NCBI GenBank assembly: GCA_961205875.1
Contig: OY540821.1
Coordinates: 10,354,001 to 10,418,000 of the forward strand
DNA from: Sialis fuliginosa
Lineage: Eukaryota > Arthropoda > Insecta > Megaloptera > Sialidae
Length of the DNA: 64,000 nucleotides
Direction: 5' to 3'
The position numbers and the translations under genes are program-made. Positions 8,416 to 64,000 of this stretch are shown one piece after another; the first letter of the stretch is position 1, and each line of letters begins with the position of its first letter. A model generated the notes under the pieces. It searched no databases and was not told the origin of the DNA. It was given only the letters and a program-made list of their open reading frames with translations.

Positions 8416-8636
8416 ATCACATAAAAACATTTCTGTTATTTTATTGTTTTAATCAGTTTTACATTCTCATGCGAAGAAATAGGAAATACTTTTTATTTTA
8501 GTTAGTTTTTATGGATGCGTTATAGTAAATGAATAAAGAAAGAATGACGCCCTAACAAGAGGAATTAAAATAATAATAAAATAATAAACGTAAGTTGTTG
8601 ATAGTTTCTTCTAAAGTTTAATCTCGGGTTGCCTAA

Positions 8637-8896
8637 AGATACTCATAGTAAGAGTTCCGACAGCCTGAATCGATTTCTGATTGATTGTAGTAACCAAGTC
8701 TCACTTAAAATCGTATTTTCTCATTTTATCAATTGATAGGTATCATTAAATATACTTCATATTATTTACATTATGTTCAATTTTAATTTTATGCTTGCTA
8801 AAAATAATACAAAAATTAATTTTTGAATAAATCGCGCCACCATCGATTTAGCTAAAATTGGCGACGCTATGTCATAACTCTTACTACGAGTATCTC
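8637..8896. mobile_element. MITE with AGATACTC..TAGTAAGAGTT termini
   Basis: The left end AGATACTCATAGTAAGAGTT is matched inverted by AACTCTTACTACGAGTATCT, enclosing 260 bp. The same terminal sequence bounds a larger composite at 62936-63885. Confidence 0.65.
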
Positions 8897-9381: not shown

Positions 9382-11883
9382 ATGGAGCTCGTTTTAAAAT
9401 ATGCTGTTCTATTAGTAATTATATACATCAAATCAACCCAAAGTATTTGTAAAGAAGAATTAATAAAAACTTACAAAGTATTGCTTTGTAAACAGTCAAC
9501 AATAGATGATTACAACAAATACATACCGTCCATAAATAAAGATGGAAGAGTATTTTTCACTAACTCGTATCTTACCACAATTCCTAAAGAAGCCTTCAAG
9601 AACCAAGGCGAAAAAATAAAATCACTATGGCTTCCGAATAATCATATTGAAAATATACAAACTTTTGCTTTTGGAAATTTAGTTAACGTGACTTATATAG
9701 ACTTATCAGATAACCCTATAACTAAAATTGTAGTTGGAGCATTTGCTACAGCATCTACAGATTCGAAATTATTGTATGGGGATTTAAAGAAATTACTCAA
9801 GATTAATTTAAGAAATAATGTTATTACTCAGTTTGAACTTGGTGGTTTTTATGGATTGAATGATATGAAATTTTTCCTCCAACCTATTTTCAATTTGACC
9901 CATATCAAGTCAAATAATTTTCAAGGGCTTGGTGAAAAGATCCATACTTTTTCGATTACAAACTGTACTTTAGAATATACCGAAACAAATTCTTTCAATG
10001 GAATGAAAGGTTTAAAAAGATTGGACTTTTCTGGAAACAAAATAAAGAAGCTAGCATCGAAAACATTTGGAATCAAGGATTTGTTGTTCCTGAACATGTC
10101 GAATACTGTTATATATGAATTAGAACACGAAGCTTTCGACTCGTTAGAAAACGTGACGGAATTCCTTCAACCAATATTTAAACTTGAAGTATTACCAGAA
10201 AAATCATTCGTAGGGTATCCGAATATTGTAAATACATTAAATTTATCAAGTTCTGGTTTAAAAAGAATCGAACCCACGGCATTCTATGGAATGGGTTCTT
10301 TAGTATCTTTAGATTTATCGAACAATAATTTAACAATATTGAAATCATCAGTTTTTAACGGCCTTTCTTCATTAACTTTATTGAACTTGAAGTTTAACAA
10401 TATTAGAATAATTGGAGCTGATTGTTTTTCTTCATTAACCAAACTTACTGATTTTCATATGTTTAATATAAAAGGAATCCTTGCAAAGGATCTTTTAAAT
10501 AATCTAAATCAGCTAAAGTATTTAGATTTATCTAATACTGGATTGGCTAGTATAGATGGAGGAATATTTTCAAATTTATCCTTATTAGGATATTTAGATG
10601 TATCCTTAAACGATTTTTTTTCAATAGGTAGCGATTCTTTTACGGGGTTAAATTCTTTGCATACTTTAGACATGACCGGTGTTACAATAAATGATATTTC
10701 TGACGGAGCATTTAAAGGTGTTCCGAATTTAAAACGCTTTAGAACTCCTCGATTTAAATTAAATAAAATACCAGATGATATTTTCAACGCTCTGTCTAAT
10801 ATCCAAGAACTTGATTTGTCCCAAGGAACTATAGAAGATGTTCCTTTAAATGCGTTTAAAAATTTAAGTTTACTAACTAGTTTTAATATATCTTACAATC
10901 AAATAACTGAACTGAAAAATGGTACGTTCTATGGATTCAAAAGTTTGTTGAAGTTAGATCTGCAAGGAAATCGTATATCTGTCTTAGAAAGTGGGGTTTT
11001 TGGGGATATGTCGCATTTACAAAAGTTGTGGTTGAATGGTAACTTATTAGAAGTTATAAATCCAGATACTTTTAAAGGATTGGCAGATTTGAAGTTATTG
11101 AATTTAGATGGTAATAATATAAAAATAATGAATCATGATTCGTTCAGTGGACTCAAAGAGCTTAGTTTTCTTTCGTTGGAAAGTAACGCGATTAAAAAAT
11201 TACAACCGGATACGTTTCACGATTTAAGTAATTTAGAAACGTTAGATTTATCTATAAACCAATTATCAGATATAGAAAGTGGGGCTTTTACTGGTTTACG
11301 TAATTTGAATATTTTAAATATATCTTCAAATTCTTTAACGTATTATGCGGAATCTGTATTTTTTCCTTTGGAAAATTTGCAAGTTTTAGATATAGAAAAT
11401 AACAAGTTGAATTTTATTAATATCCCACATTTAATCGATCACTTACCATCGATTAATAGGGTCAATTTAGGATCAAATGATGTATTTTGTATGGAGGTGG
11501 GTAACATTTTGAAGAACTGCAAAGAAAGGAAAATAGAATGTCAACAAAGGAATCCTAGACAAAAGGGACAGAAAAATGTGAATGGGGTATTATGTAAAGA
11601 TTTACATTTCCTTACTGATACAGAATATGATCTTAAGCCATATGACGATATGGAGGCATTTGATCCTTATGATACTGATGCTATGACTTCTGAGGTTATT
11701 AAACCTGAGAATGACAGTGGCGCACTTACTTTAACTATTTCTTTAGTTGTAGTTTTAGGGTTTATTGTTTTGTCTTTGATAATTATTTTTAAAAGTAAAT
11801 TTGCTAAATGTTTCTCGGTTTTATTTAAAAACCCTAATAATAGTTTTGCTAGGATTCATTTTTTTGCTGGAGATAACGAATGA
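9382..11883 (+). CDS. Leucine-rich-repeat single-pass membrane protein, 833 aa
   Basis: One uninterrupted frame. Residues 1-21 are a signal peptide, followed by a short Cys-containing cap, then about 26 LRRs of ~24 residues (consensus LxxLDLSxNxIxxIxxxxFxxL) over roughly residues 65-715. A Cys-rich C-terminal cap follows, then an acidic juxtamembrane stretch. One membrane helix spans about 782-803 (LTLTISLVVVLGFIVLSLII) and the cytoplasmic tail is 30 residues. There is no TIR domain, so it is not a Toll receptor. It resembles the insect chaoptin/capricious-like or LRR-only adhesion and receptor class, with no closer identity. Many NxS/T sequons support extracellular exposure. The sequence AATTTTTAG directly precedes ATG, so an upstream untranslated exon is likely. 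Repeats 4, 8, 12 and 16 lack the usual LDLSxN core, showing a four-repeat super-period. The antisense frame 10509-10787 is a shadow. Confidence 0.93.
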   Translation: MELVLKYAVLLVIIYIKSTQSICKEELIKTYKVLLCKQSTIDDYNKYIPSINKDGRVFFTNSYLTTIPKEAFKNQGEKIKSLWLPNNHIENIQTFAFGNLVNVTYIDLSDNPITKIVVGAFATASTDSKLLYGDLKKLLKINLRNNVITQFELGGFYGLNDMKFFLQPIFNLTHIKSNNFQGLGEKIHTFSITNCTLEYTETNSFNGMKGLKRLDFSGNKIKKLASKTFGIKDLLFLNMSNTVIYELEHEAFDSLENVTEFLQPIFKLEVLPEKSFVGYPNIVNTLNLSSSGLKRIEPTAFYGMGSLVSLDLSNNNLTILKSSVFNGLSSLTLLNLKFNNIRIIGADCFSSLTKLTDFHMFNIKGILAKDLLNNLNQLKYLDLSNTGLASIDGGIFSNLSLLGYLDVSLNDFFSIGSDSFTGLNSLHTLDMTGVTINDISDGAFKGVPNLKRFRTPRFKLNKIPDDIFNALSNIQELDLSQGTIEDVPLNAFKNLSLLTSFNISYNQITELKNGTFYGFKSLLKLDLQGNRISVLESGVFGDMSHLQKLWLNGNLLEVINPDTFKGLADLKLLNLDGNNIKIMNHDSFSGLKELSFLSLESNAIKKLQPDTFHDLSNLETLDLSINQLSDIESGAFTGLRNLNILNISSNSLTYYAESVFFPLENLQVLDIENNKLNFINIPHLIDHLPSINRVNLGSNDVFCMEVGNILKNCKERKIECQQRNPRQKGQKNVNGVLCKDLHFLTDTEYDLKPYDDMEAFDPYDTDAMTSEVIKPENDSGALTLTISLVVVLGFIVLSLIIIFKSKFAKCFSVLFKNPNNSFARIHFFAGDNE

Positions 11884-17339: not shown

Positions 17340-18190
17340 ATCTTTAATCTATAAACAGTTGCGAAGTGTTCATGGAAGCAGTGCTTCCCTTACTTTATGG
17401 GTAAATTAATACAAATCTGTATTTTCAGTTAATAAATAATTTAAAAATATTATTAGAATATTCATCTTTATGAGCAACTCAAACAAAAATAGTATTTAAT
17501 ATTATTTTACACGCTCAATTATAAAACTATAATCCCTCTACGTCTTATTTTCTTGTATTTTAGTCGATATTTGTATGACGAATTGAAGTTCCCTGCAGGA
17601 TATTTCACTAAAAAATTTTGAATTTTTGATTTCGTTAAAAGTATGTTTATTGTATAGAAAATGACGTGAAAAGTTGTTTGTTTCAAACCGCAGGTCTGTA
17701 TCTCAAACCGTTCTCGAGATATAGTCCCTCAAAGTTTCAATTCTTTCAAAATTTTGAAGAAAAATGGCCCTAACTTTTGAACGGATGTTCGGAATTGATT
17801 TTAGTTGACGGATTTGGAATCAGCGTGTCAAAATCTATATAATGACATGTATAATACCTTATAACTCGGAAAAAAAATTTTCGCGAAAAATCGAAAAAAT
17901 TCAAAGGGGTATACCTTAAAAAAATGTCGATTTTTTACCAAATTTTTTTTGTCGGATTTTAAAGTATTATACATGTCATTATATAGATTTTGACACGCTG
18001 ATTTCAAATCCGTCAACTAAAATCAATTCCGACCACGCGTTCAAAAGTTATGGCCTTTTTTCTCCAAAAATTTGAAAAAACTAAAACTTTGAGAGGCTAT
18101 ATCTCGAGAACGGTTTGAGATACAGACCTACGCTTTGAAAATTTCAACTTTTCACGTCATTTTCTATACAATAAACATATTTTTAACAAA
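17340..18190. repeat. Fold-back repeat, family C, copy 1
   Basis: A long imperfect palindrome. CGCAGGTCTGTATCTCAAAC is followed about 440 bp later by its inverse, and the arms also include TTGTATAGAAAATGACGTGA and CTACGTCTTATT. The left flank (17340-17530) also occurs, inverted, beside copy 2 at 56170-56360, so the two are parts of one larger element. The 62-codon minus-strand frame at 17828-18016 is a by-product of the palindrome. Confidence 0.75.
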
Positions 18191-18942: not shown

Positions 18943-21900
18943 GTAAGTAAGGCATTATTTCATTTTAATCACTTATTACTTAATTTTTCTAGAATATAAT
19001 AAATTTTTATTTATACGTTTATATATTTATGTAGTATTGTTTTCACGAAATTTTCTTTATATTTATTTTGTAGTTATTAAGAGTTGAATGGATTATTCTA
19101 AATTATAATGAAACTTTCGCGATAGTCATTATATAAATCTAGATTTTTAATTATAAGTGTTATAAATTTTAAAATCATATTTTTTTACCAGGAAGAAAAA
19201 GCAAAAAATGCTAGATTCTTTTCGGCGACCTATATGCAAATTGCAGTATTTAGTACCTTAATATTATTTTTGTTACTAGTTGTGTTTATAAAAGGTATGA
19301 TTGATTACAAGAAGCCTAGAAGTAGAAAATCCTGGCATGATCCACTCAAAATGAAAAAAACACGCGCGACAAGGAAGTGAGTATCAAAAATATAAATACA
19401 TTATTTATTTATATCAAAAATTATTTAATTCAAAAACCCTTGAATATTCTTAATAACTTCAATAACCCAAAATGATTTATCTTAATGATAAATACATCGA
19501 TGATCTTGTTCCTCTTGGTTTCTGAATGATCCAGATATGACTGAACTTTTAAATTATACGTAGATCCAAAAAATTAAAGTCAACAAAATCTTTAAAACTA
19601 TTTTTCTAGCTAATTTACAATTATTGAGCTATAAATATTGCAATTTTGGAACGTCTACATTGTGTAATTATGTATTTACCTTGTTTTATTAAATGGACAT
19701 TAAAATAATTAAAATTGAAAATAATACATTATCTACTTTCTTCAAGAAAATTTATAAAAATAGAAACTGTTTTTTCTTATAAAAAATTAAATATTTTTAT
19801 TAATATTATGGACAAGTTCAAGCACTTATATTGTCATTTAATATAATAGCGTCCGGATTATATTATATTAAATGTACACTTACTAATTTTAATACCATTT
19901 GAATGACCAAATTTTCACTAACTTTATATATGTTTTTTTATTTTTTTATTCATTGTTATTATTTGAATATATACAATATTGTACATACAGTATAACATCT
20001 TTAAATCGACCAGAATTGTATCATCAAATACCGATCATATAGAAATAGTAGGTACGTCTGGTACACATAAAAAACGCTGAACTTTTCGAATGTAATATGC
20101 CACTTTCTGTAGTCATATATAAGGTTAAAAGAAAGATTTTCAGATAGGGAGCCACTTTAAAATGTGTAGAACACTACTATAGCGGCTATTAAAGATGGCC
20201 CCTACCGATGTTCTAAAATTGGCTGTATCTCAGTTCCTAGTCATCCAGTTTCAATTTTCTTTTGTTTATTTTATGTTCTTGAGAAGATTATTTTTTGTCA
20301 TGACTCGTTTTTCTCTAAATTCACAATTTTTGAAAATTTGAAAATTTCACTTGTTTTTTTGTCGTTTCCAATATAATTTTTTTACTACATATAAAAAAGA
20401 AAGACCAACTTCTTTGTAAATCTTACTTAGTTAAACTAAGAAAAATAGACTAATTTTTGCCACGTATAACCAGACGTACTAAAATAGGGATCGATTCGAG
20501 AAACTTCACTACTTGACCTAAAAACTCGAATACAAAAATAAAATTGTACTTATTTAATTTATCCCAAATGTTGCAATAATCGACCCAATTTTTTTCCCAT
20601 TACAGATTATACAGTAGTCGCGAAAATTTATTTTCGTAATATATTTATTTATTATTTGGATTATTTTCTTTTTGATTTTGCTCCCTGCATTATGTTTATT
20701 GTGACCCTAATGAAAAGGATGAAACAAAAATAATGGCGTCGATTGAACGGTACGTACACATAATTTGCGTAAAGCGTAGCACGGTGACATTTTGGTGTTC
20801 GCTGGAATAGTGCGCGTTCACACAGTCAGCGTTTTGGCGTAGCGTTCAGTGCTGCAATTCTTGATATTATTGGCGATTGCTAATCGGTTTTTGTAGGAGT
20901 TGTGTAACATTGAAGTTTTTTTACCCTCCTCCCTCCCCCGCCCGTTATTTTTGCGATGCTACGCTTTACGCTGTATGTGTGAACGTATTGTAATCAAGAC
21001 GGTCTTTTTACAAAATATATCAAATAATTCCCTTATTAAAATATCAAAATACTCCTGAGGTGTAAACAAAAAAGAAATATTTAATGGAGTATATGCCTAA
21101 ATCGTCGATGTAGCGAAAATGATGTAAGATAGAACAAAAATGAACAGAAGAATTTTTTTAGATAATAAAATTTCCTATAAGAAAGTTACTTACGGTATAT
21201 ATCTAAAATTAATAGTTCAGCAGTGAGAGCCGTTCAAAATTACAAGATCAATTTTATTTAAAAATGTCGCAATATGCTTCGACCATCTATAATATAAAAT
21301 GTAAGTATATAGCTAATAAAAATTTCCAAAAAAATATTTGATGTGAAATTTTATTATCTGTAAAATTATTGCTATTTATTTTTGTTTTATCTTACATTAT
21401 TTTTTTTCCTGATATTTTATTAAGGGCATCATTTGGTGCTAAAATACTCGAGGCGAAAATTAATATTTTTAATATTATTTTCAAAAATCCTGTAGTAACT
21501 TTTTAAATTTATTTCTTTCAATGTAGCTATTTGCTACATTTAGCTGAATTGATGAAGAAAGCTTATCTGTATATGAAGACATTATCAACAAAATATATCA
21601 AAGCATATATACCAAATGTTCATATCAACATGAGTATTTTTAATAAAAAACATTCCAATATTCAAAACACTGCAAGTATAAATACGCCCAGTTTTAACTA
21701 CCCAAACAGTACACCGCATAACCCAAGTATAAATATTCCAAACATGAACTTCCGGAACACCTGTAAGGCAACAAATAACAATGAAAATTTCTTCGGTTTG
21801 CAAAATTTTTCTAGGTGAGTATAGAATTATCTAGTTGCGGGTAAGTTTGAAGTGAAACCTCGAAACGTTTTAAAATATTATACGACAGGTTTTCAAGATG

Positions 21901-24900
21901 AAACGCTAAGGAGAGTGTGCACATTATGCATGAGAGAGCGATGAATAGATGTATAAGAGAAAGATAGACGTTCAGTTTACGTGTTTTGTATAAAATTGAA
22001 GTGTTAAAACAATACGTTTAATTTTTAATTTAATATGTTTATAGTACAGGCAACGAAGGGATTTAAATAGAACAAATTCGGAGTGGAATGAAATTTGGTA
22101 CCCATATAATATACATAATAGTACGTCTGTACACAAAAGTCCCCATCCATAGGCCTTGTGGAAAAAAAAATACAGCCGTTTGAAATTTAATTTAGTTTTT
22201 ATTGAATAACTTCAAGACAAATAAAGATACCGAGACGTGCCTTACATTAAAATTTTCAAAAATATTTGCTTTACAACTTTATTTCAAAATTTTCTCCAAC
22301 GTATCTACATAGATTGCTGAAAAATCGCCGTGAATCTGAAAACTAAGTGCGTTTAATCAAAAAAATATGTTTAAATGGATTTTTAAGATCTTAAAACTGA
22401 TAATCGAGACAAATGTCCTCTATAAAAGTTGTAGAGAATAAAATTTTACAATTTTTTTTGTAAGGTACAACATTCGATGTGTAAATTTTTGTTAAATATT
22501 TCTATTTTAAAAAGTCAAAAAAACAAATTTTAATTTATAAAATCGTATAAATAGCATGCTATGAAAATTAGCATTACATAAGAAAATAACATATTGGTAT
22601 AGAAAATTAATGAAAATAAAAGTAATTAATAATTCCAATACTTCAAATAAGACTTTTAATAACATATTATGATAACAATGTACTGAGGTGTAATTTGTAG
22701 CCCCTAGATTTAATATTATTGTATGTTTTAATAGTTTTAAATATAAATCTTCAAGACATTTTATTTTATCTTCAAAATACGGATATTAGATAAGAACAAA
22801 ATCAGAGTATCATAAAAATTTGCACATATGTAGTACTTATATTACATTAGACATGTGCAAAAGTCCTCATAAATTGGGGATATGGAAAAAAAATTATAGC
22901 TGTTTTAATTTTGATATGATAAATTACTATGTATCATATTTTCACTTATAATTAACCGTTTTTTACTTGGACATTTACATATTGTGTATCTCTGTATAGC
23001 ATGTACATTATGAACAATTGAATTATGATCATTTTGATAGAAAATTTTGATTTTTAAATCAAACGGTTGTTAAGATATAAATTTATTTGTTTAATTCGAT
23101 TTTATAAAAGTATATTTTGTTATGTATTTTATACCTGTTTACAGATACGCTTATAACATTTCTTTCGGGGTATCAATTAATGGGGATTTTCAAACAAGCG
23201 TAGTAGATACATTAGTGAGTGCATCTGAAAAAGTCCCCATACATTGAAGCCATAGGACAAAAGTTACAGCTGTTTTATAATTACGGTGTGGTAAATTGAT
23301 ATCTATGTAATGTGTTAAATTATGTAAATTATGTAATTATGGGTGATTCTCTCAAAAATTGAAACTGAATTTTATTCCTATTTGATCAATGTTATCGTTC
23401 TTATTGAAAGTAGTAACCATTTTTTTTAATTTCCCATCGAGACTCTCCATAAAATATTCTTAGGTTTTTTTTTTAAATATGATGTATGAGTTTTAATTTG
23501 TTTTTTTAGTTTTAACTTGTTTTTAAAAAGGGAAGAAGCACGCGAAGGTCTTTAAGTGCGTGATGCTCTTAAAGATAATAGTGTAAGCTACATTTAAAAA
23601 AAAAAACTGGAGTCTCTTCGATCGCGCCAAGCTGAGATATTAACTATTCAATTTACTTCTTTGTTAGCGTATGAGTTTTAATTTGTTTTTTTAGTTTTAA
23701 CTTGTTTTTAAAAAGGGAAGGAGCACGCGAAGGTCTTTAAGTGCGTGATGCTCTTAAAGATAATAGTGTAAGCTACATTTTAAAAAAAAACTGGAGTCTC
23801 TTCGATCGCGCCAAGCTGAGATATTAACTATTCAATTTACTTCTTTGTTAGCGTATGAGTTTTAATTTGTTTTTTTAGTTTTAACTTGTTTTTAAAAAGG
23901 GAAGGAGCACGCGAAGGTCTTTAAGTGCGTGATGCTCTTAAAGATAATAGTGTAAGCTACATTTTAAAAAAAAACTGGAGTCTCTTCGATCGCGCCAAGC
24001 TGAGATATTAACTATTCAATTTACTTCTTTGTTAGCGTATGAGTTTTAATTTGTTTTTTTAGTTTTAACTTGTTTTTAAAAAGGGAAGGAGCACGCGAAG
24101 GTCTTTAAGTGCGTGATGCTCTTAAAGATAATAGTGTAAGCTACATTTTAAAAAAAAACTGGAGTCTCTTCGATCGCGCCAAGCTGAGATATTAACTATT
24201 CAATTTATTTCTTTGTTAGCGTATGAGTTTTAATTTGTTTTTTTAGTTTTAACTTGTTTTTAAAAAGGGAAGGAGCACGCGAAGGTCTTTAAGTGCGTGA
24301 TGCTCTTAAAGATAATAGTGTAAGCTACATTTTAAAAAAAAACTGGAGTCTCTTCGATCGCGCCAAGCTGAGATATTAACTATTCAATTTACTTCTTTGT
24401 TAGCGTATGAGTTTTAATTTGTTTTTTTAGTTTTAACTTGTTTTTAAAAAGGGAAGGAGCACGCGAAGGTCTTTAAGTGCGTGATGCTCTTAAAGATAAT
24501 AGTGTAAGCTACATTTTAAAAAAAAACTGGAGTCTCTTCGATCGCGCCAAGCTGAGATATTAACTATTCAATTTACTTCTTTGTTAGCGTATGAGTTTTA
24601 ATTTGTTTTTTTAGTTTTAACTTGTTTTTAAAAAGGGAAGGAGCACGCGAAGGTCTTTAAGTGCGTGATGCTCTTAAAGATAATAGTGTAAGCTACATTT
24701 TAAAAAAAAACTGGAGTCTCTTCGATCGCGCCAAGCTGAGATATTAACTATTCAATTTACTTCTTTGTTAGCGTATGAGTTTTAATTTGTTTTTTTAGTT
24801 TTAACTTGTTTTTAAAAAGGGAAGGAGCACGCGAAGGTCTTTAAGTGCGTGATGCTCTTAAAGATAATAGTGTAAGCTACATTTAAAAAAAAAACTGGAG

Positions 24901-27900
24901 TCTCTTCGATCGCGCCAAGCTGAGATATTAACTATTCAATTTACTTCTTTGTTAGCGTATGAGTTTTAATTTGTTTTTTTAGTTTTAACTTGTTTTTAAA
25001 AAGGGAAGGAGCACGCGAAGGTCTTTAAGTGCGTGATGCTCTTAAAGATAATAGTGTAAGCTACATTTAAAAAAAAAACTGGAGTCTCTTCGATCGCGCC
25101 AAGCTGAGATATTAACTATTCAATTTACTTCTTTGTTAGCGTATGAGTTTTAATTTGTTTTTTTAGTTTTAACTTGTTTTTAAAAAGGGAAGGAGCACGC
25201 GAAGGTCTTTAAGTGCGTGATGCTCTTAAAGATAATAGTGTAAGCTACATTTTAAAAAAAAACTGGAGTCTCTTCGATCGCGCCAAGCTGAGATATTAAC
25301 TATTCAATTTACTTCTTTGTTAGCGTATGAGTTTTAATTTGATTTTTTAGTTTTAACTTGTTTTTAAAAAGGGAAGGAGCACGCGAAGGTCTTTAAGTGC
25401 GTGATGCTCTTAAAGATAATAGTGTAAGCTACATTTAAAAAAAAAAACTGGAGTCTCTTCGATCGCGCCAAGCTGAGATATTAACTATTCAATTTACTTC
25501 TTTGTTAGCGTATGAGTTTTAATTTGTTTTTTTAGTTTTAACTTGTTTTTAAAAAGGGAAGGAGCACGCGAAGGTCTTTAAGTGCGTGATGCTCTTAAAG
25601 GTAATAGTGTAAGCTACATTTTAAAAAAAAACTGGAGTCTCTTCGATCGCGCCAAGCTGAGATATTAACTATTCAATTTACTTCTTTGTTAGCGTATGAG
25701 TTTTAATTTGTTTTTTTAGTTTTAACTTGTTTTTAAAAAGGGAAGGAGCACGCGAAGGTCTTTAAGTGCGTGATGCTCTTAAAGATAATAGTGTAAGCTA
25801 CATTTTAAAAAAAAACTGGAGTCTCTTCGATCGCGCCAAGCTGAGATATTAACTATTCAATTTACTTCTTTGTTAGCGTATGAGTTTTAATTTGTTTTTT
25901 TAGTTTTAACTTGTTTTTAAAAAGGGAAGAAGCACGCGAAGGTCTTTAAGTGCGTGATGCTCTTAAAGATAATAGTGTAAGCTACATTTTAAAAAAAAAC
26001 TGGAGTCTCTTCGATCGCGCCAAGCTGAGATATTAACTATTCAATTTACTTCTTTGTTAGCGTATGAGTTTTAATTTGTTTTTTTTTTAGTTTTAACTTG
26101 TTTTTAAAAAGGGAAGGAGCACGCGAAGGTCTTTAAGTGCGTGATGCTCTTAAAAATAATAGTGTAAGCTACATTTTAAAAAAAAACTGGAGTCTCCTCG
26201 ATCGCACCAAGCTGAGATATTAACTATTCAATTTACTTCTTTGTTAGCGTATGAGTTTTTATTTGTTTTTTTAGTTTTAACTTGTTTTTAAAAAGGGAAG
26301 TAGCACGCGAAGGTCTTTAAGTGCGTGATGCTCTTAACCCTTAATTGCATCTTGTTAACATTCGTGAACAATGTTTTCAGAGGTATCTATTAGCAAAAAT
26401 GTACAATATTTTTTAGCCTTTGCGATTCTGGCGCCCTAGGCGAGATTTCTTTTGACGCCCCCCCCCCCCCCTTTCCACCGCCACAGTGACGATCATTAAA
26501 AATTATCCGCACAAAAAAAAAAAAGCGTGAGAAAATTATCTTGTTATTAATTCATTAGTGTAATATAATAATATAATATAACATATAATTGATAAATAAT
26601 ATATAATATAACTAAAATTATATAAAAGATTTCTTCCTGGCTTTCATATCTGCAAAATTATCGATTGCTGTCTCAAAATTGAGGTTTGCTACAACCTTAT
26701 TTTCAATTGAAAGAATAGCCAAATTATTCAACCTATCTTCTATCATAGCCGATTGCAAATAAGTTTTTATGAATTATTTTAATTTACTAAAACTTCTTTC
26801 ACCACTAGCTACACTAACCGGAATTGTTACAAGAATTAGCAAAGCCACCCACAGATTTGGCACTGTGCTTTTCAAGTTTTGTAAAAAAATGTTTAATAAA
26901 TAATTTATTTTTGATATTAAGCATTTTATTAAGTAAAATGAATTATTTTGCAGAAAAAATCAAAACTATTATTCAAAAAATATATATAGCTTAAATTTGG
27001 CGCCCTAGAACAGAACATAGAAAAAAAGTTTAAAATAATTGGCGCCCCCACGAAATTAGCGGCCCAGGCTGTCGCCTGGGTCGCCTGGCCGTTCGGCCGG
27101 CCCTGCCAATATGTTATTTTCTTATGTAATGCTAATTTTCATAGCATGCTATTTATACGATTTTATAAATTAAAATTTGTTTTTTTGACTTTTTAAAATA
27201 GAAATATCTAACAAAAATTTACACATCGAATGTTGTACCTTACAAAAAAAATTGTAAAATTTTATTCTCTACAACTTTTATAGAGGACATTTGTCTCGAT
27301 TATCAGTTTTAAGATCTTAAAAATCCATTTAAACATATTTTTTTGATTAAACGCACTTAGTTTTCAGATTCACGGCGATTTTTCAGCAATCTATGTAGAT
27401 ACGTTGGAGAAAATTTTGAAATAAAGTTGTAAAGCAAATATTTTTGAAAATTTTAATGTAAGGCACGTCTCGGTATCTTTATTTGTCTTGAAGTTATTCA
27501 ATAAAAACTAAATTAAATTTCAAACGGCTGTAATTTTTTTTCCACAAGGCCTATGGATGGGGACTTTTGTGTACAGACGTACTATTATGTATACTATATG
27601 GGTACCAAATTTCATTCCACTCCGAATTTGTTCCAAAAACAGGGCAATTTTTCCCTTCATTGCCTGTACTATTAGCTTTATTTATTTAATTCGCATGGTT
27701 AATGAAAACAAAATAAGTTTCACTTCAACCATGTGCTTGTGTATGCGAGGTACACGCAACTTTTTTATTTTGTTTGTTGGTTTTTGAAATTGTTGCAATT
27801 TTTATTTAGACAAGAAGATGTCCCTTTAATCGTTAATTCTGTGAATTCCTTGCATACTTTGAAACTGAGAGATCTTAATTCGATGGACAGTTACATGCAT

Positions 27901-29330
27901 TTGTTTCAAAAAAAGAACCCTGCCCCTATTAATTTGTAAGTATTTATTTTTACCCCTATTTACATATTATATTCATTCTTAGTGGGGTGTTTACGTCATA
28001 AAAGAAAGCCACGTTTGGGTTGGGCGTTGATGAGCCAGTCACTCAGGATTTATACCTCTGTTGTTTTATTTTTTCGCGATAGAAAATATCGCATGGATCA
28101 GCATTCTTACTATCGATCCTAAAAACATTTGTTTATTACTTTAATGAAACCGACTTCAAAAAAGTAGAGGAGGTTCTAAATTCGACAATATAATTTTGTT
28201 TTCTTCGGGCATAATTTCGACAAATATGCATCGATTTGGGAGATTTTTAAAAATTTGATAGAGTATACTCCTGGGGTAGTCTCATATGAATTTTATCAGA
28301 ATTTGACCATGTACTTCGAAGATACACCACTCAAAAGGAAAAAATAAAAAACCTAAAAAATATATAAAAAAAACGATTTTAAAAAAGCCTAAAAACATTG
28401 AAAAGTATAAACAAATTATTAACAGCTTTTGAATTCGATGCCAAGCCGATAAGAAAACCGATTTCAAAAACTATTTAATTAGGTATTAATTCGTATTATT
28501 ATAGGTATTTTTTATTATTTAAGGTAGTTCTCGTACAAACATCATTTCGATAGAATTAAAAAAAAAAAATCAGGGTATAAAAAGAATAATGATATCTATC
28601 CAATCGTGAAATTTTAAAGAGATCGACCGTTTTAAACTCGAGATAATTGTCATCAAAGTTTGCCACTTTTGTACGTATCCGCTATATCAAGTTCGTATTA
28701 TGTCCATTTTCATGACTAAAACTTCGATAGATTTTGATAAAAAACTATCAAACAATAAAGGTTTATTATTCTGATATGTGATAAAAAATTCCTAATGATT
28801 GACCTTGTATTTCAAAAACAAAATGATTGACCGTTTCATATTTGAAATTTAATTATATTTCAAAAACAAAACGGTCAATCATTTTGAATTTTTTATCACA
28901 TATCATAATAATAACCCTTTACTGTTTGGTAGTTTTTTATCAAAATCTGTCGAAGCGTTTAGTCATAAAATAAAAAAAATATATTCATAGTATGATTGTG
29001 TTTATAATAATCTGTATAGACGGCTTTGGGTATAGACTTGATCAAAAATTCTCTGTAGCAACGCAATTATTTTCGATATTTTACTATGGTATTATGAGCG
29101 TAACTTTTTGTTGATACTGTAGCACGAGAACTACCTTAAAGTTTTTTATAAATGATTTAAAATTGCATATTTCAAGGCCGGTGGTTGAAGAAGAAACGTG
29201 CAGTAATGAACGTTATTACAGCGTTACAAATAGCTGTACTCAAACTGACGAAGCTGAGTTTGTGAATGCCCTGTCGCATTGTGTCCTCAGACGAACAAGA
29301 AGTGGCCAAGTTTACGGTTGGTTTCTCTGA
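18874..29330 (+). CDS. Unrecognised five-exon membrane protein gene, 273 aa
   Basis: Exons 18874-18942, 19192-19376, 21527-21814, 27810-27935 and 29177-29330. Every border is GT/AG and the phases agree (0, 2, 2, 2), giving 822 nt that end in TGA. ATG at 18874 is the first in frame after a TAA at 18856. Residues 2-22 are hydrophobic, and 37-56 form a clear membrane helix (YMQIAVFSTLILFLLLVVFI) followed by a basic stretch (KKPRSRKSWHDPLKMKKTRA), which suggests a cytoplasmic C-terminus. Residues 130-175 are Asn/Ser/Pro rich. The C-terminal exon carries ERYYSVTNSCTQTDE and a basic RRTRSGQVYGWFL end. I recognise no family. Confidence in the gene rests on five consistent splice joins; function is unknown. 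Intron 3 hosts a 5.6 kb satellite-bearing element. Confidence 0.75.
19192..19376 (+). CDS. 273-aa gene exon 2 (membrane segment)
   Basis: Acceptor TTTTTTACCAG, donor GTGAGT, 61 codons plus 2 nt. It encodes EEKAKNARFFSATYMQIAVF, the membrane helix and the following basic stretch. Confidence 0.75.
20046..20482. mobile_element. MITE with TAGTA(GG)TACGTCTGGT termini
   Basis: Left TAGTAGGTACGTCTGGTACA and right TATAACCAGACGTACTA are inverted repeats about 437 bp apart. No coding content. Confidence 0.65.
20751..20987. mobile_element. MITE with GCGTAAAGCGTAGC termini
   Basis: Left TACGTACACATAATTTGCGT plus AAAGCGTAGCAC is mirrored by GCTACGCTTTACGC and TGTGTGAACGTA on the right, 237 bp in all. 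It is GC-richer than its surroundings. Confidence 0.7.
21527..21814 (+). CDS. 273-aa gene exon 3
   Basis: Acceptor TTTCAATGTAG, donor GTGAGT. The phase fits exon 2 (AA+C). It encodes YLLHLAELMKKAYLYMKTLS and then a low-complexity Asn/Ser/Pro/Ile tract with near repeats (SINTPSFNYPNS, SINIPNMNFRN). Confidence 0.75.
22042..22597 (+). repeat. Left terminal inverted repeat of the 5.6 kb element
   Basis: Reverse complement of 27106-27671, apart from a few substitutions and a small indel near the outer end. Confidence 0.85.
23484..26336 (+). repeat. 184 bp tandem repeat array, ~15.5 units
   Basis: The word TTAGCGTATGAGTTTTAATT recurs with spacing 184 bp (boundaries at 23667, 23851, 24035 and so on to 26247, one step of 185 and the last of 187). 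Units are almost identical, differing mainly in A and T run lengths and a few substitutions, with more changes in the last two. Each unit contains AAGCTGAGATATTAACTATT, TCTTCGATCGCGCC and an imperfect hairpin (GAGCACGCG ... TGCGTGATGCTC). There is no spacer variation, so it is a satellite and not a CRISPR array. Confidence 0.97.
26420..27105 (-). mobile_element. Decayed hAT transposon 3' portion
   Basis: The right edge reads inward as CAGGGCCGGCCGAACGGCCA, a hAT-type terminus, and GC-rich GGCGCC words mark both sides. It contains the transposase remnant at 26618-26892. A C-run at 26458 and AT-rich filler indicate decay. Confidence 0.65.
26618..26892 (-). pseudogene. hAT transposase C-terminal dimerisation domain, broken
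   Basis: The minus-strand frame reads PNLWVALLILVTIPVSVASG, ERSFSKLK, stop, FIKTYLQSAMIEDRLNNLAI and LSIE, ending KARKKSFI and TAA. The pattern P(V)xxASxERSFSxLK..IKxYLxSxMxxxRLxxLAxLSIE is the hAT family C-terminal domain as in ZMYM1-like transposases. One in-frame TAA follows SKLK, and the N-terminal part is missing. Confidence 0.8.
27106..27671 (-). repeat. Right terminal inverted repeat of the 5.6 kb element
   Basis: Reverse complement of 22042-22597. The inner edge (CCAATATGTTATTTTC) abuts the end of a hAT remnant. Confidence 0.85.
27810..27935 (+). CDS. 273-aa gene exon 4
   Basis: Acceptor TTTTTATTTAG, donor GTAAGT. The split codon AG+A gives Arg. It encodes QEDVPLIVNSVNSLHTLKLR and DLNSMDSYMHLFQKKNPAPIN. 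Confidence 0.75.
28150..28500 (+). repeat. Dispersed repeat, family G, copy 1 (intron 4 of the 273-aa gene)
   Basis: Contains GAGGTTCTAAATTCGACAAT and TAGTCTCATATGAATTTTAT, shared with 57905-58200. No coding sequence; the minus-strand frame 28282-28467 is spurious. Confidence 0.55.
28521..29137. mobile_element. Fold-back MITE with AAGGTAGTTCTCGT termini
   Basis: The outer ends AAGGTAGTTCTCGT and ACGAGAACTACCTT match inverted. The centre is a long palindrome around ATGATTGACCGTTT / AAACGGTCAATCAT. It lies entirely in intron 4, 40 bp before the last exon. Confidence 0.75.
29177..29330 (+). CDS. 273-aa gene exon 5 (terminal)
   Basis: Acceptor CATATTTCAAG. The split codon TT+G gives Leu, followed by 50 codons and TGA. 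Encodes PVVEEETCSNERYYSVTNSC, TQTDEAEFVNALSHCVL and RRTRSGQVYGWFL. The balanced base composition contrasts with the surrounding AT-rich DNA and supports coding. Confidence 0.7.
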
Positions 29331-38885: not shown

Positions 38886-58893
<20,008 letters not shown>

Positions 58894-62300: not shown

Positions 62301-63074
62301 TATGAAATTATTCCTGAAAAGTAGAATTTATAAATGAATAAAAAAACTGAAAATATACTTCTTTTCCAATATATCCAGTCCATTAGACTGGATAAGTTTT
62401 ACTGTCTTTGGCTTTTGAATAAGTGTATTTTCGAGCACTCTAGAACAAAAACCATGTTCCCATTGCCCCCCCCCCCTGGAATCGCGTTTGAACGTACCGT
62501 AATTGTCATCATCTTAAAACTACCATTTTAATTTTACAAACCCAGCATCCATATATCATTCAAAAGCACCTGTACTATCCCCAAATAAATACTTCACCGT
62601 AGGTACTAAATAAATAAAAAATAGACGAGGAGAAAAAAAGCCTCATAAATCACGAATCCATAGACAACAACAACAACAAAGTCCTGTCGGCCTTTTCCTG
62701 TAGGAATATCTAACGAACTGTACACATGTGTGTTGGGTGGGTTGCGCGGGGTGAGTACATTTAAATACTTAACGAGTCGTGGCAGCAACGGTCACTCCAT
62801 GTGTCGTTTATGTAAACACGCGGGCATCAACTAGAGGACGTTTGAGGAATCGCCGCAAGAGAGTTTAAATAAAGTCGCTAAAATACACTGCTCTCTCGAG
62901 AACTTACAAGATAGAAAAGAGATTTATCTAAATAGAGATACTCACTCATAGTAAGAGTTCTGACAACTCGAATCGATTTCTGATTGATTATAGTAACTAG
63001 AGATACTCCAGTATACTCCAGTAAGAATTATGACAGCGTCGCAATTTTTAGACAAATTGGCGGTAACGCGATTT

Positions 63075-63352
63075 AAAAAAAAATTATTTTTAGCAAGACC
63101 CTCGCTGCGTCTATCTGTTTGTCTGTGCATGATTTTCTCAGTAACTATTGAAGGAATTTTATTCCGGTTTTCACTAATGGGTAGAGTATTTCTCGAGGAA
63201 GGTTTAGGTGGTAGGTAAATGTATATATGTATATTTTGTGTAAATTTCATGAAATCAGAGATAGAGATAGATATCTTTAAAATAATTAGCGATAAGTGAA
63301 AACAGTTTAATAATTTTATTACAGATTAAATTTATAATCTCGGGTCCAATGC
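63075..63352 (-). repeat. Dispersed repeat, family D, inverted copy
   Basis: Read on the minus strand it starts TAGCGCATTGGACCCGAGAT and contains CCATTAGTGAAAACCGGAAT and ACAGACAAACAGATAGACGC. Confidence 0.65.
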
Positions 63353-63499
63353 GCTAATAAAAAAAATTAAATTAAAATAGAACATCCATGTCCATATATA
63401 TTGTAAAGCTGGCAAATCAGGGCGACCGGGGCGACGCACAATGGGGCAATTTGGTTCAATAAATCAGTATACAGGCTATAATTTTTGAGTAAACTTTTT

Positions 63500-63740
63500 A
63501 GGAGTCTGTAGGATTGCCCCAAGCTGAGATATTAACTATTCAACTTATTTGTTAATTTATTAATTTTAATTTGTTAATAATAGGGGAAGGGGTTTCGACG
63601 GTCTTAGGGCATTTGATAGTCTTAAAGTTAATGATGTAAGCTATATTTAAAAAAAAAATTTGAGTCTGTAGGATCGCGCCAAGCTGAGATACTAACTATT
63701 CAACTTCTTTGTAAATTTATCAATTTTAATTTACATTTTT
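63500..63740 (+). repeat. Diverged copies of the 184 bp repeat
   Basis: CCAAGCTGAGATATTAACTA occurs at 63518, and ATCGCGCCAAGCTGAGATAC at 63672, about 155 bp later. AGGGGAAGGGG, GGTCTTAGGGCATT and GATGTAAGCTATATTTAAAA lie between, in the order of the 23484-26336 unit. This is about 1.3 decayed units. Confidence 0.8.
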
Positions 63741-64000
63741 GGTGATTTTTGAACATTTTTTAGGGTGAGAGAGGACGGAAACATAAATCTCGCCCAGGGC
63801 ACCAGACTAACTAAGGCCGGCTCTGGCTACTACAATCAATCAAAAATCGATTCGGACTGTCAGAACTCTTAAAAAATGAGTACCTCTAATAGTAACAATG
63901 ATTCTATCAAAAAGATGTACTTACAAAATCATAAGCGAAATAACAAAGAACTGATTTTTCGATTCAAACAAATCTTGTTTTCGATCGATTTTATTCCTAC

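Follow-up and report, generated by a model that had tools for sequence, protein, structure and literature searches.

In the 64-kb window (the whole stretch of 64,000 nucleotides of Sialis fuliginosa DNA that was analysed), we find a block at 22042-27671 in which two inverted arms of approximately 560 bp enclose a tandem array of 184-bp units. The limits of this block proved correct as given in a preliminary description of the DNA, which also placed arms and array inside an intron. The intron is predicted at 21815-27809 on the plus strand: A splice-like donor (TCTAG/GTGAGT at 21814/21815) and acceptor (TTTAG/ACAAG at 27809/27810) bound it, and the reading frame runs on across both, from the exon ending at 21814 into the exon at 27810-27935. 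The splice-like sites and the frame thus support a putative position within an intron. As predicted, the intron measures 5995 bp and would measure 365 bp without the element. When the two exons are joined and compared with Pfam, the family GCS is reached at E = 0.079 (12.7 bits, under the cut-off of 25). Elsewhere in the window, an open frame of 833 aa at 9382-11883 carries leucine-rich repeats (Pfam LRR_8, E = 9e-93), and the frame at 38889-39248, for which there was no Pfam match up to E = 0.001, is presumably akin to the beginning of a homeobox protein of Phox2 type.

The left arm (22042-22597, plus strand) starts with TAGTACAGGCAACGAAGGGA and is the inverted match of the right arm (27106-27671, minus strand). 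Along an ungapped core (22070-22597 against 27106-27633) there are three mismatches in 528 nt. The full gapped match (22041-22597 against 27106-27672) has an identity of 96.6% over 567 columns and a score of 942 bits; its identity is below that of the core mainly because some 10-20 bases just inside the terminal ~20 bases are unlike. By comparison, 50 first-order Markov shuffles of 21000-29000 gave no inverted match above 50 bits, the highest score reached, and the two inverted arms of the preliminary description are thereby confirmed. We found no second copy of the full arm or of the arm pair across the whole 64-kb window, and no transposase belonging to the arms was found. The arm end, the arm module, and the arm subterminal stretch had no exact matches in a viral contig collection, and the left arm had no match among phages, both being collections in which few animal sequences are expected. 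Other inverted repeats also occur in the window. There is a near-continuous foldback at 17631-18190 (277-nt arms, 87% complementary, with a 6-nt spacer) and a long palindrome of ~720 bases at 55438-56159, consisting of two nested pairs of inverted repeats (230 nt at 92% and 125 nt at 93%); short-loop inverted repeats of MITE size, with arms of 83, 81, and 111 nt, lie at 28722-28955 and 52019-52618.

Inward of the left arm, an inner segment (22598-23483, plus strand) contains two degenerate copies of the arm module (22794-22934 and 23222-23306), and six-frame searches of 22042-23483 found no protein families up to E = 0.1. The tandem array, the only outstanding one of the window, follows at 23484-26337 on the plus strand, with 15.5 units at a period of 184 (TRF). 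Cut at a fixed motif, it yields 15 full units and one partial unit. The full units have a mean pairwise identity of 98.9%; seven of the 15 are identical to the consensus, and five more differ from it at one column. These values bear out the earlier statement that the array consists of near-identical, homogenised copies. The departures from the consensus are unevenly spread, with 14 out of 19 falling in units 1, 11, 15, and the partial unit 16 (three, three, six, and two columns, respectively). Three of these four most divergent units (1, 15, and 16) are at the edges of the array, the exception being the inner unit 11, which is as divergent as unit 1. Such divergence of edge units would be the usual mark of unequal exchange. 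The core of the unit had no exact matches in viral contigs or genome contigs, collections of viral and prokaryote sequence in which a lack of matches tells little about an animal genome, and two units compared with plasmids gave no match.

The array does not run directly into the right arm. Beyond an unassigned spacer (26338-26415), whose resemblance to the expected continuation of the arm does not exceed that of shuffles (47 of 300 as good), we find the relic of an internally deleted hAT transposon at 26416-27105 on the minus strand. The minus-strand translation of these ~690 bases matches the hAT C-terminal dimerisation domain (PF05699, E = 4.2e-10; 39.7 bits against a cut-off of 21.4), with a stop codon inside the domain. 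An intact-looking terminus, CAGGGCCGGCC, starts on the minus strand at 27105 and directly adjoins the first base of the right arm, 27106; it is probably hAT-like, as the adjacent domain suggests. The opposite terminus, near 26418, is decayed, and the likeness between the two ends is at chance level (equalled in 207 of 1000 shuffles). The left arm carries CATATTGG at 22590-22597, the point at which the right arm is cut, and the arms therefore cease to match exactly where the hAT terminus stands. No continuation of the right arm was found beyond the relic. The putative hAT target site, CCAATATG, is at 27106, and no second copy of it occurs in 22598-27105, even with one mismatch, as would be expected if the far end of the relic has been lost. 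At 26403-26410 there is ACAATATT, which differs from the target site by two mismatches and may be a chance occurrence. The pattern of the hAT terminus had no exact matches in viral contigs, among which few animal sequences are expected.

At the outer ends of the arms, the flanking DNA tells of an older repeat. When the sequence left of 22042 is joined to that right of 27671, the resulting stretch can be aligned, through the junction, with 12596-12470 on the reverse strand, at 82% over 127 columns and with a single 2-base gap (E = 2e-30); 30 AT-rich bases of this alignment lie left of the junction. We assign 21850-22041 to the left part of the interrupted repeat, in which these 30 junction-side bases are joined further left by collinear but weaker matches, of 27 bases at 93% and of 133 columns at 68%, to 12.63-12.75 kb. 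Its right part is at 27672-27750, where 27676-27750 is 85% identical over 75 bases to 12560-12486. These alignments give the outer ends of the arms the look of genuine insertion junctions; most probably, the block splits a dispersed repeat that has a relative without the element at 12.5 kb. As in a terminal inverted repeat (TIR) transposon, the inverted repeats stand at precise junctions, the left side being represented by 30 bases. Both flanks carry TTA, which fits a 3 bp duplication, yet the joined flanks need no duplication in the empty-site alignment. By exact comparison there is no duplication of 4-11 bp in the flanks at 22042 and 27671; the 8 bp duplication common in the hAT superfamily is likewise absent from the flanks of the outer arms. 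The likeness to hAT elements, in the PF05699 dimerisation domain and the probable hAT terminus, belongs only to the inner piece at 26416-27105. The mobility of the arm element would rest on this one insertion.

We consider it probable, at somewhat better than an even chance, that the block is a nested composite made up of two DNA transposons, a non-autonomous element with long TIRs and a hAT insertion, and of an internal repeat that grew where it lay. The TIR element, its arms ~560 bases long, would have inserted into the older dispersed repeat within the predicted intron, an event to which the junctions and their empty-site relative point. The right arm would then have received a hAT element, either within it or at its inner end, where the hAT terminus is seen to abut; the far end of that element and neighbouring right-arm sequence would have been lost. 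Within the interior, unequal exchange or slippage would have multiplied a 184-base repeat, either carried or acquired, to 15.5 copies. The same processes could keep most of the middle units identical and let the edge units drift, which is the pattern observed. The arm cores, still 99% alike, suggest either a young insertion or mutual conversion.

The array also has a relative within the window. At 63501-63743 on the plus strand there is a diverged relative of the 184-bp unit in 1.4 copies (73% over 273 columns, E = 3e-39), and it is without these arms: Its surroundings, 63300-63500 and 63744-64000, resemble the arm on both strands at chance level (130, 98, 28, and 99 of 300 shuffles as good). 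As the single other occurrence of the unit found in the window, it suggests that unit and arms can occur apart. The preliminary description had regarded arms and array as one dedicated unit, a claim that finds no support here on two counts: the array is separated from the right arm by the hAT relic, and the one other unit-like sequence found in the window has no such arms. Neither that relic nor the two relatives, at 12.5 kb and at 63.5 kb, had been mentioned in that description. A dispersed repeat in three copies (62933-63002, 63821-63888, and 8634-8696) has its first two copies inverted around the 63.5 kb relative. We did not count 62952-63871 as a second element of like build, since its arms (51 nt at 86%; 70 columns at 81%) have a third copy at 8634-8696; they may be pieces of another dispersed repeat, though the stretch may also be a second case.

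The 63.5 kb relative is also the source of the main rival to a composite origin, according to which the array belongs to a non-autonomous element of hAT type and arrived with the relic, or grew beside it, and is no part of the arm element. Next to the unit relative, 63785-63806 matches the decayed end of the relic (26427-26448) at 20 of 22 bases, which none of 1000 shuffles equalled, and at both loci no other recognised piece lies closer to the unit on its right side. However, this stretch faces opposite ways relative to the unit at the two loci; the array is therefore outside the relic at 26 kb, but the unit would be inside at 63.5 kb. A left hAT end near 63.42 kb is a weak candidate (14 of 1000 shuffles as good), and to the left of the array we noticed no hAT-like end. 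With the evidence so divided, we regard a hAT origin of the array as rather unlikely.

The preliminary description further supposed that the arms are able to pair, and this receives support from a cofold of the two isolated arms, in which 544 intermolecular pairs are predicted. Since satellites in mosquitoes can yield piRNAs, the arms might be read as a functional long hairpin, the folded intron transcript being processed to small RNAs and the satellite forming its loop or serving as their source. Against this, the loop between the arms is 4.5 kb long, no Rfam family matches, and the unit folds in no unusual way on either strand (171 and 97 of 200 shuffles, respectively, do as well or better). 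Seventeen inverted-repeat pairs occur in the window, two of them involving the arm element, and such elements are therefore ordinary here. We think a functional hairpin very unlikely. Under the nested composite that we favour, the pairing of the arms would be a by-product of inverted repeats, as in any long-TIR insertion, and for the host the element probably means no more than a longer intron.

An origin of the array, or of the symmetry of the arms, partly in assembly is less credible still: Copy number in near-identical arrays is hard to assemble, but several units hold private variants, and the three core substitutions, together with the unlike stretch near the ends, mark the arms as separate sequences. 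We would call it equally far-fetched that there is a long-TIR family which regularly carries the satellite and seeds arrays in gene-rich DNA, its intronic hairpin giving small RNAs that act on related copies of the satellite in other places.

Returning to the nested composite, we compared its parts with elements known from other animals. The preliminary description stated that no known mobile family combines these parts; this overlooked published satellite-bearing non-autonomous elements, but it stands insofar as we recognised, in a limited literature search, no published element with exactly this set. Helentrons are not known to have long TIRs, and the TIRs of ~560 bp here do not fit a Helitron or Helentron with central repeats. 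The Cg_HINE Helentrons of Crassostrea gigas are likewise non-autonomous, have satellite-like central arrays, and are scattered through the genome (PMC7492417). Satellites that grow inside non-autonomous DNA transposons are described in reviews (PMC9659126, PMC12628747). According to the same texts, the miDNA4 MITE of Xenopus is a TIR element that encloses a satellite, be it one monomer or an array whose copy number varies; it is described as a Tc1/mariner MITE, whereas the present element has arms of ~560 bp, an unplaced superfamily, and a nested hAT relic (PMC12628747, PMC9659126).

Tetris, a foldback transposon of Drosophila virilis, has AT-rich internal repeats of ~220 bp that have expanded to satellite-like arrays (PMC4079207). 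The likeness extends to the non-autonomous state, the long inverted arms, and an AT-rich tandem repeat of similar size, and also to long arrays, which in Tetris are more homogeneous than short ones (PMC4079207). The differences are that the repeats of Tetris sit within its arms, whereas here the array occurs once, between the arms only, and that its target-site duplications are 8-10 bp long, whereas here there is no duplication of 4-11 bp (PMC4079207). The locus thus departs from a Mutator-type foldback element such as Tetris in two features, having no 8-10 bp duplication and no tandem repeats within the arms.

On the evidence of the sequence, we would file the locus as a satellite-bearing TIR element of unplaced superfamily with nested damage, a kind of element that is already known. 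It shows rather clearly a satellite in the course of growth within a mobile element, in DNA that bears genes; the junctions can be seen, as can a relative of the empty site and a relative of the unit that lacks the arms. As such, it would be a further instance of the published connection between DNA transposons and satellite birth, and it indicates that an inverted repeat around an array need not be one functional device.
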